Source: Halomicronema sp. CCY15110
Lineage (GTDB): Bacteria; Cyanobacteriota; Cyanobacteriia; Phormidesmidales; Phormidesmidaceae
Assembly: GCF_016888165.1 (NCBI RefSeq)
Contig: NZ_JACSWC010000394.1
Span: forward strand, 1-42,269
Direction of reading: 5' to 3'
Length of the DNA stretch: 42,269 nucleotides
The notes below the pieces were generated by a model that was not told where the DNA came from, did not search any database, and worked only from the letters and a program-made list of their open reading frames with translations. Made by a program: the position numbers and the translations under genes. Below are positions 18,691 to 22,971 of this stretch, one piece after another. Each line of letters starts with the position of its first letter. Within the stretch, counting starts at the first letter, position 1.

Positions 18691-19839
18691 TTATCCCTTG
18701 AGGGCGGCCCGCACCGCCTGCTGCTGATCGCGGCGCGTAATCCACCGATGGTACGTACGGTTATGAATCGCCACGGAGTGCCCCATCATGCGCGCCGCCA
18801 CTGTATCGGGCACCCCCAGCAAAATAGTGCGTACCGCCCAGGCGTGGCGCAAATCATAAGGAGAAAACGGCATCTTGTAACGCTGGAACTGGAGCGTCAC
18901 CTGCTGGCCGATACGCTGCAAGGTGGTGCGCTGCAAATTGGTCTCAATGTCCGGCAAGCAGACCGTCCTCAAGTCAAATTCGGCAATCCACTCGGGGGGA
19001 AAAGGCCAGACGTCATGGGCTCCGGTTTTGGTGGTGTCGAGCACTTCGATCGCCGCTTCGGTATCCCCCGACTGCAATGCCTGATAATCGCTGAAAAACA
19101 CCTCATGATTGCGCAGGCCGTACACCGCCATCGCGCCGTAGACAAACTGCCAAGCCGGATTGGGAATGCGGTGGAAGCATTCGACAATTTGCTCATCGGT
19201 GGGCAAATCTCGCCGTTGGGTACGGCTGCTGCCATATTTGCCCCACAGCGTTTTCAAATCAACGGGCAACTCTAGCGAGAGAAACTGCGCCAACGCTTCC
19301 ATCGCGGTGCAGCAGACCTGCCGACTGCGAGAATTTGCCTGCGTCTCTTTCACCGTCGCCACGATCGCCTCGGGCACACTCAAGCTGGGGCGGCGATCGC
19401 TGAGCGACTGCAACTTTCTCAAATAGGGTGCGTAGGCTTTGCTCCATGTCGCTTGCACCGAGGCGGGATGCTTATCGGGGTCGGCTTGGGCTTCCGCCAG
19501 GTAATGTTGCTCAAAGGCTGCAATTTTGTCCGCCAGGGCATCTGACCCCAGCACGAGGCCAGACTGCACGAGATAGTTGCGCCAGTCAAAGGTGCCCTCA
19601 ATCAGCTTGGCGGCAATGACCTTAGCCTCCTGCTCCGCCTGTTTCAAAGCTGCTTTATTCGCCGGTAGTTTTAGGGGAATGCGCTGCTGATAGGGGCGGG
19701 TGCGATCGCTGCCAGGGCGCGGCGGCAACGTGCCACGTAGCGCCAACATATCGCCCCGCCGCTCGACTTTGAGCCCGAGCCGGGCCGCTTTGAACCGAAC
19801 ATTCACCTGATCGAGATGGGCATCTAAGGGATGAGGCAT
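18691..19839 (-). CDS. Tyrosine-family site-specific recombinase
   Basis: This 382-residue protein (counted from the ATG at 19839) has an N-terminal DNA-binding part with a SAM-like core domain (about 90-200) and a C-terminal catalytic domain. The catalytic set is Arg243 (GLRNHE), Lys271 (TTKTGAHDV), Arg331 (YDLRHAWAVR), His354 (MMGHS) and the nucleophile Tyr363 (RTYHRW). The first His of the usual HxxR is Tyr328 here. An upstream ATG at 19938 would add 33 residues and bring the gene to within 24 bases of petM. A candidate promoter at 19897-19925 favours the shorter form. No attachment-site duplication or cargo genes accompany it, so it may be a resident recombinase rather than part of an active element. 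Confidence 0.88.
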   Translation of the reverse strand: MPHPLDAHLDQVNVRFKAARLGLKVERRGDMLALRGTLPPRPGSDRTRPYQQRIPLKLPANKAALKQAEQEAKVIAAKLIEGTFDWRNYLVQSGLVLGSDALADKIAAFEQHYLAEAQADPDKHPASVQATWSKAYAPYLRKLQSLSDRRPSLSVPEAIVATVKETQANSRSRQVCCTAMEALAQFLSLELPVDLKTLWGKYGSSRTQRRDLPTDEQIVECFHRIPNPAWQFVYGAMAVYGLRNHEVFFSDYQALQSGDTEAAIEVLDTTKTGAHDVWPFPPEWIAEFDLRTVCLPDIETNLQRTTLQRIGQQVTLQFQRYKMPFSPYDLRHAWAVRTILLGVPDTVAARMMGHSVAIHNRTYHRWITRRDQQQAVRAALKG

Positions 19840-19896
19840 TTTCCAGCGGTCGGCATCAGCGACACAAAGACTAAACGTGAGACCTTGAAACTGTAA

Positions 19897-19925
19897 AATA
19901 AACGGTGCGAACACAGCGTTTTCAA
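19897..19925 (-). promoter_or_regulatory. Candidate recombinase promoter
   Basis: Read on the minus strand, TTGAAA (19925-19920), a 17-base spacer and TTTATT (19902-19897) give a plausible -35/-10 pair. Transcription would start upstream of the ATG at 19839. It lies within the potential longer reading frame and close to petM. Not tested. Confidence 0.35.
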
Positions 19926-19962
19926 CGATTAAACGCAATTAAGCATAGGAGCTAAATTCATC

Positions 19963-21428: not shown

Positions 21429-22499
21429 TTACTGCAGCTTGAGCGCGTTTCCGTGGTTGATGTATTCGCTCACGACCCCCTGGCGGAACGTTATCGTGCT
21501 GTTGCCAAAACTAAATACTTCTTTACAGCTACTGTCCAATCGGCTCACGGCTGTCGGCGTTTGCTGCTCGGCCTGCAAGACATCAACCCGATCAGCGCCA
21601 ATCGTCCAAAAAGTGGCGGTCGCTTGACCCTTTGCCATCGTTGGCATCATCGCCACGCTCAGATTGCCATTGGTGTTGGTGTAGCCAATGACGCGATCGT
21701 CGGCCAACTGGACAATGCTGCTGCCATAGTGCAAGGTCACGGCATTCTGAAACGTGCTCGTACGGGTTGGCGTTCCTTGAATTTGGAAAACCTCTTCTTG
21801 GGAAGACCCAATCGCCCAATTTTCCGGCGAAGCCTGGAATGACAAGGCTACTTGCCCATCCCCCAACACTTTGAGATTGCCATCCGAATCACTGAAATCA
21901 ACGACATAGCCATTCTTTAGCTCAACAATACTGTCGCCGTAGTACATCACCTCTTTACAAGAATTGCCGTACTGCGTCATCCGCGCCGGCATGCCCTGCA
22001 AGGCGACCACCAGTTCGCGATCGGAACCAATTGTCCAATAGGACTGCGCCTCCGGATTGATGGGAGCGCGGGAATCAATGTTGCTCTGGGCGTACTGGAG
22101 GTTGCGCGCATATTCAACCTGCTTTTGCTGCGCCATCTCATAGCTGGAATGTGACGCTGGTACCGATTCCATCTTGGTCAGCGCCTGCTGCCACAAAATC
22201 GCGACTTGACTCCACTCTTCGCGGTATTCAGCACTTTGAGTCAACTCAGCTGCACTCATCGCTTGGCGCGATCCCTGAGCAAAGGGGTCTTCGAGCGACG
22301 TGGTGGCGTTATCCGGCTGGGGTCTTAATAAGGAAAAGTTTGCTGCCAGCCCTAACCACATGCCGCCAATGCCAATGCTGACGCCTACTAGAGTCCACAG
22401 CAATTTGGTGCGAAAGGCTTTGCGATGGTTAGTAAGTTCAAAGGTATATAAGGGCTCAGATTGATGGCCTTCAAGCTCTGGATGGCGATTTTCTGACAT
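21429..22499 (-). CDS. Membrane-anchored protein with three internal repeats, function unknown
   Basis: I do not recognise this 356-residue protein. It has a short polar N-terminus, one membrane helix at about 33-57, a helical stretch at about 85-140, and then three copies of a roughly 57-residue beta-rich unit at 155-211, 228-282 and 298-355. Each unit begins W-T/A-I-G, continues with a Q-x-x-(T)P segment and a YG/FG-x-S-x-(I/V) segment, and ends near G-N-(L/A). Units 1 and 3 share an S-C-K-E-V segment, which reads N-A-V in unit 2. The topology puts the repeats outside the cytoplasm if the helix is a signal anchor. The ATG at 22499 is preferred; the frame stays open 33 codons further upstream. 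No operon partner is seen. Confidence 0.75.
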   Translation of the reverse strand: MSENRHPELEGHQSEPLYTFELTNHRKAFRTKLLWTLVGVSIGIGGMWLGLAANFSLLRPQPDNATTSLEDPFAQGSRQAMSAAELTQSAEYREEWSQVAILWQQALTKMESVPASHSSYEMAQQKQVEYARNLQYAQSNIDSRAPINPEAQSYWTIGSDRELVVALQGMPARMTQYGNSCKEVMYYGDSIVELKNGYVVDFSDSDGNLKVLGDGQVALSFQASPENWAIGSSQEEVFQIQGTPTRTSTFQNAVTLHYGSSIVQLADDRVIGYTNTNGNLSVAMMPTMAKGQATATFWTIGADRVDVLQAEQQTPTAVSRLDSSCKEVFSFGNSTITFRQGVVSEYINHGNALKLQ

Positions 22500-22971
22500 A
22501 CACAGTGATGGTAGGAGGGCGCTCAGTACAGAGCGTGAGTCAACAACTCTGATGGCAAGAGAATGCAGACTGGGAGAAATACGTAAATGCTCAGTCAATT
22601 TTAACGACCCTGGTTCCTGCGAACCAATATTGAACGGTTTGTATGGTTTCTTGACTGTTTCTTGATGATGGGAGCAGTGAGCTTCACAGACTCTTGATAT
22701 TTCTCCAGGGGCGATGATGTGCTGCGTGGAGAAACACGGAGGCTTGGTGAGTGGGCTGCTGTGAAAGCGGGGATCTGATACACAGTGCAGTAAGTGCCAT
22801 CACTTACAGGTGATAGGGGGAGCACTGGGCTGGGGGCCGCATCGCAGGCATATCGCTCTCTCCAAATGCCGCCAAACGCGAGCAAGGCTGGCAACCACGG
22901 GTGTTGGCGAAAGCCATGATTCGCAACTCGCACTGAAATCCTAGTCTGATGCTGTTTGGCGAACTCGGGGT
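22500..22971. other. 472-base spacer with a small dyad
   Basis: It lies between two minus-strand genes. GTAAGTG (22790-22796) and CACTTAC (22801-22807) form a 7-bp dyad with a 4-base loop, possibly an operator. An open frame at 22601-23005 overlaps the end of the next gene and has no protein-like character. Confidence 0.4.

Follow-up and report, generated by a model that had tools for sequence, protein, structure and literature searches.

A cyanobacterial membrane protein with three tandem units of predicted BamE/BLIP-like fold and a conserved pair of cysteines

The window analysed here, a stretch of 42,269 nucleotides from Halomicronema sp. CCY15110, encodes on its reverse strand a 356-aa protein (Table 1), the neighbours of which are NmrA-like, ABC ATPase, ScpB and DUF760 genes. 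This neighbourhood is shared among close relatives only and is not conserved across families. In one further cyanobacterial family, nine genomes (L082-L088, L091 and L093) carry a gene with the appearance of an alpha/beta hydrolase (GFSAGA motif), which lies on the same strand and upstream of the homologue, at a distance of about 60-600 bases. The window also contains, at 18694-19938, between the genes for a peptide methionine sulfoxide reductase and the NmrA-like protein, an open reading frame of 415 aa that had no Pfam match at E 0.001. For the 356-aa protein, an upstream TTG start at position 22598 was rejected, because the closest full-length homologues (e.g. L011, L012 and L017) align from residue 1 of the ATG start. 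Behind a short N-terminal tail (residues 1-30), hydropathy reveals one hydrophobic stretch, which fits the original prediction of a membrane protein, and since this single stretch is preceded by the positive residues HRKAFRTK, an N-in, C-out topology is suggested. Residues 1-180 are devoid of cysteine, and the protein therefore lacks the lipobox of a BamE-type outer-membrane lipoprotein.

Table 1. Observed and predicted features of the 356-aa protein and its gene (window coordinates)
Feature	Coordinates	Strand	Remarks
Whole gene, 356 aa	21429..22499	-	ATG at 22499, stop ends at 21429; homologues begin at the same place
Predicted single transmembrane segment, about residues 33-55	22335..22403	-	Hydropathy; follows positive HRKAFRTK (N-in)
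Three-helix module, residues 71-146	22062..22289	-	MIT-like overall fold; recurs in many other cyanobacterial envelope proteins
Predicted BamE/BLIP-like unit 1, residues 155-211	21867..22037	-	Cys181
Predicted BamE/BLIP-like unit 2, residues 228-282	21654..21818	-	No Cys; best Pfam BamE match (E 0.0085)
Predicted BamE/BLIP-like unit 3, residues 298-355	21435..21608	-	Cys325

Approximately the last 202 residues of the protein are taken up by three units, which begin at W155, W228 and W298, end in GNLKV, GNLSV and GNALKL, and measure 57, 55 and 58 aa, respectively. The BLOSUM62 local alignment scores are 113 for units 1 and 2, 99 for units 1 and 3, and 54 for units 2 and 3, as against means of 20-22 (SD about 4) and maxima of 40, 35 and 46, in the same order, in 2000 shuffles, which corresponds to z values of 24, 21 and 7. 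The triplication is confirmed, and the repeat, its borders and its coordinates are as originally described.

The three-unit architecture proved to be strictly maintained. A single-unit profile search and survey of architectures, as advised with the original prediction, detected the units in 52 of the 388 genomes of Cyanobacteriia, with exactly three unit matches in 51 of the 52; the sole exception has four matches, its gene being split between two contigs. At E 0.001, these 388 genomes yielded no protein in which the number of such units was other than three. The homologues, which are 35-87% identical, come from the same genus, the same family and other families. The survey covered Cyanobacteria plus plasmid, phage and viral records; viral contigs and phages yielded no relative, the one viral match falling outside the units. 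A tree built from 81 units groups them by position, with best-split supports of 0.82, 0.88 and 0.90 for units 1, 2 and 3, respectively; one unit 2 falls in the unit 1 group, and the units of a Paenibacillus relative (see below) fall with unit 2. Given this grouping by position across species, the unit sequences indicate that the triplication is old and predates the split of these cyanobacterial families.

The original prediction had left the unit as a domain of unknown type, a view that does not hold at the level of the fold. A single-unit AlphaFold2 model, built from ten unit sequences taken from the window protein and from three relatives, is of high confidence (pLDDT 91.5, pTM 0.78) and consists of one short helix (positions 12-19) packed on a four-stranded antiparallel sheet (strands at 24-28, 33-38, 41-46 and 49-54). 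When this model was compared with 969 chains using VIA-align, the first 21 rows comprised SAV1118, BamE, OsmE, BLIP-like, BLIP, CAP-associated/SCP and DUF4309 proteins, together with one T6SS immunity protein (9uu1). The Z-scores were 7.0 for SAV1118 (4h0a), 6.6 for Bartonella BamE (7txx; 27% identity), 6.5 for OsmE (4dm5), 6.4 for a B. anthracis SCP-domain protein (4ifa), up to 6.0 for E. coli and Neisseria BamE, 6.0 for an S. mutans BLIP-like protein (3d4e), 5.3 for BLIP (rmsd 2.1 over 56 residues) and 5.0 for DUF4309; values below 8 can reflect a common arrangement, and the weight of the comparison comes from one superfamily filling the top rows. The top five Foldseek matches belong to the same families, with E-values that are not significant (best 0.17).

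Sequence comparisons provided weak, independent links in the same direction. Pfam BamE (PF04355) matched the 356-aa protein at 14 to 16.3 bits, below the cut-off of 23.2, and the best match of the unit profile in the PDB was Bartonella BamE 7txx (E 0.0067), followed by OsmE (E 0.74); influenza haemagglutinin matches of the same profile (E 0.4-1) were dismissed as chance. Comparison of the unit profile by hhalign with a single-unit protein of another class gave E 0.0004, at a probability of only 36%, and the same comparison with two cyanobacterial Pfam-BamE matches was empty. No single sequence match of the units passed a curated cut-off. BLIP (PF07467) was absent from the Pfam matches of the protein up to E 10 and of 19 units up to E 1, PepSY models had no match in Pfam searches of the protein, its units or the Paenibacillus homologue, and a direct search of the whole protein against the PDB found nothing; NCBIfam gave no match to the protein and PHROGs only chance-level ones. 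Because one superfamily dominates the top 21 VIA rows and independent sequence links, albeit weak, agree with it, we predict with confidence that the unit has a BamE/BLIP-like fold, the fold of the BLIP-like superfamily. The units were thus matched to a characterised domain, an outcome that the original prediction had named as evidence against itself, by structure and only weakly by sequence. At the sequence level, the three-unit protein passes no Pfam or NCBIfam model and bears no family annotation in the sources searched; the novelty lies in its copy number and architecture, the superfamily itself being known. The module is probably extracytoplasmic, as first proposed, but the model is alpha/beta rather than purely beta. 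As to whether three equal domains form, the prediction is confident for one unit, whereas the whole-protein AlphaFold model (four sequences; pLDDT 54, pTM 0.31) is too poor for the packing of the units to be read.

Relatives were also identified outside Cyanobacteriia. A protein encoded on the Paenibacillus peoriae plasmid NZ_CP011513.1 (WP_060628934.1; P0005, L094:2191-3588) contains a membrane segment and exactly three such units, and aligns with the 356-aa protein at 29% identity over 214 columns (BLASTP, 3e-13). It falls 0.6 bit under the Pfam BamE cut-off (E 9e-5, 22.6 bits versus 23.2) and weakly matches the CAP-associated model PF14504 (E 0.017). It differs from the cyanobacterial protein in having another N-terminal region and no cysteine in the units. 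Its units resemble one another (54-62% identity) more than they do those of the cyanobacteria, so this triplication probably occurred independently. In the same phylum, outside Cyanobacteriia, single-unit proteins provide a further sequence link, at E 7.6e-4. Single-unit BamE-like exported proteins are encoded in 1.9 Mb genomes of such phylum members (L096:1276-1764 and L097:1288-1815), where their genes adjoin two other exported proteins that resemble paralogues of each other.

Both the unit fold and the weak sequence link to BamE would agree with a part in outer-membrane protein assembly, whereby the three domains would stand in for BamE at the cyanobacterial BamA (Omp85) and replace the missing Bam lipoproteins. 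Most cyanobacteria are without canonical BamE (PMC6604945), and of 59 cyanobacterial genomes, we found just 2 with a match over the cut-off, that of the window not being one of them; tempting as this scarcity is, it is no evidence for an assembly role. Such a role appears highly improbable, given that the N-terminal membrane helix, in a protein that is no lipoprotein, would probably place the units at the wrong membrane, that presence in 52 of 388 genomes is too patchy for a core function, and that a three-unit relative exists in Paenibacillus, a genus not known to have an outer membrane.

The most unusual feature of the family is its cysteine pattern, which is stronger than the original prediction could see. 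As first reported for the window protein, the segment CKEV occurs in units 1 (residues 181-184) and 3 (residues 325-328) and is missing from unit 2; here, unit 2 has a two-residue deletion. All 22 complete homologues share the cysteine pattern: units 1 and 3 each carry one cysteine at an equivalent site, and unit 2 carries none, also in homologues in which the deletion is absent. The Lys-Glu-Val that follows is not invariant, leaving the cysteine alone as truly conserved, and the remaining cysteines of these homologues all lie within or ahead of the membrane region. In the unit model, this cysteine site immediately precedes the second strand and follows the turn of the first hairpin. The two cysteines proposed to form a disulfide or bind a metal are thus conserved throughout, but one cysteine per unit is by itself no pointer to a metal site. 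The most economical reading is a disulfide, which would either tie the end units together within one molecule or join two molecules. Were the bond intermolecular, or a redox switch, the protein would be a dimer or a redox sensor and not a static adaptor; exactly one cysteine in each of units 1 and 3 of all 22 homologues, with no other outside the membrane region, would suit this alternative, but the same data fit an intramolecular disulfide equally well and the Paenibacillus relative has no cysteine in its units at all, and we regard it as unlikely. Bolder, and likewise unlikely, is the idea that a first-third disulfide closes the three BLIP-like domains of this unnamed cyanobacterial family into a ring or clamp, acting as a redox-controlled envelope inhibitor or chaperone specific to these bacteria.

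The three-helix module ahead of the units is well predicted to about residue 140 in the whole-protein model (pLDDT 71-92 by blocks of ten). The same genome contains it at nine further positions, and of 59 cyanobacterial genomes sampled, 34 have it, in as many as 10 copies each; a lipoprotein signal or membrane helix often lies alongside. The sequences that accompany the module (e.g. in L108, L131, L142 and L145) read as aspartyl-protease-like or ankyrin-like, or form a single BamE-like domain (Pfam match, E 0.009). The module passes no Pfam model; its shape resembles that of MIT domains (VIA Z up to 10.9, with Pfam MIT at E 0.017 only), a match that, at this size and for a helical bundle, may be one of mere arrangement.

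The BLIP-like superfamily unites BLIP, PepSY, SmpA_OmlA (BamE), DUF2874 and DUF3192, and its members are periplasmic or secreted and thought mostly to work by binding partner proteins; tandem copies of the fold form a concave sheet, with which BLIP grips a convex partner protein (PMC2954215). Tandem domains of the superfamily also occur in Gram-positive membrane proteins, namely, two PepSY domains in TseB and CopD and three in YpeB, where SleB depends on the triple PepSY to be stable, correctly located and active (PMC10653890). By analogy with BLIP and YpeB/TseB/CopD, the protein described here is best explained as an extracytoplasmic adaptor or inhibitor, anchored in the membrane, which would grip a partner protein via three BLIP-like sheets, with the end domains possibly tied by a disulfide, an interpretation in which we place slightly better than even confidence. 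A single-pass anchor in the inner (or thylakoid) membrane would carry the three tandem BamE/BLIP-like domains and hold them in the periplasm or lumen on the short three-helix spacer. The domains would most likely form a protein-binding surface, as in BLIP, that captures an envelope partner and regulates or stabilises it, while Cys181 and Cys325, the only cysteines outside the membrane region, would be bonded within one molecule or between two. Counting against the adaptor interpretation, the extracellular domains of CopD and YpeB seemingly do not make the known partner contact (PMC10653890).

Binding of peptidoglycan or a ligand, as the original prediction had it, or of another glycan, by the three units would likewise suit the likely extracytoplasmic location. 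Wall-binding proteins commonly contain small domains in repeat. Furthermore, BamE has itself been suggested to bind lipid and to play a part in the cell wall (PMC4890855). However, neither the protein nor its units matched any wall-binding family in Pfam or NCBIfam, and most members of the superfamily are thought to bind proteins, as does BLIP, the best characterised structural neighbour (PMC2954215); wall or ligand binding is thus unsupported and, in our estimate, very unlikely.

Under the predicted fold, a protein that had no family annotation joins a known superfamily of protein binders of the envelope, and it does so in an old three-domain form that is fixed and carries two invariant cysteines, within a phylum mostly without canonical BamE. 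Should the disulfide and the partner prove true, the family would represent a new cyanobacterial envelope regulator and offer a handle on how BLIP-like domains combine; otherwise, it is still a clean family definition missing from Pfam.

The protein parallels several known systems without coinciding with any of them. BamE/SmpA_OmlA (PF04355) and OsmE share with the unit the predicted fold, the motif G-x-S-x-x-x-V-x-x-x-x-G-x-P and weak HMM matches, but BamE is a single-domain outer-membrane lipoprotein, whereas the window protein has three domains after an N-terminal membrane helix, and its units score under the Pfam cut-off and have a shorter helical part. BLIP (PF07467) and BLIP-like proteins similarly combine tandem copies of one fold in a single exported protein; BLIP, however, has two larger domains, is secreted, lacks a transmembrane anchor and a helical spacer, and has no sequence match to the window protein. 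The CAP-associated N-terminal domain (PF14504; SAV1118 and 4ifa) includes the best structural match to the unit (Z 7.0), but stands ahead of a CAP/SCP domain, which the window protein does not have. Finally, YpeB, TseB and CopD resemble the window protein, as predicted here, in crossing the membrane once and carrying domains of the BLIP superfamily in tandem, two or three of them, outside it (PMC10653890), but these domains belong to the PepSY sequence family, unmatched by the window protein, and to a different lineage.
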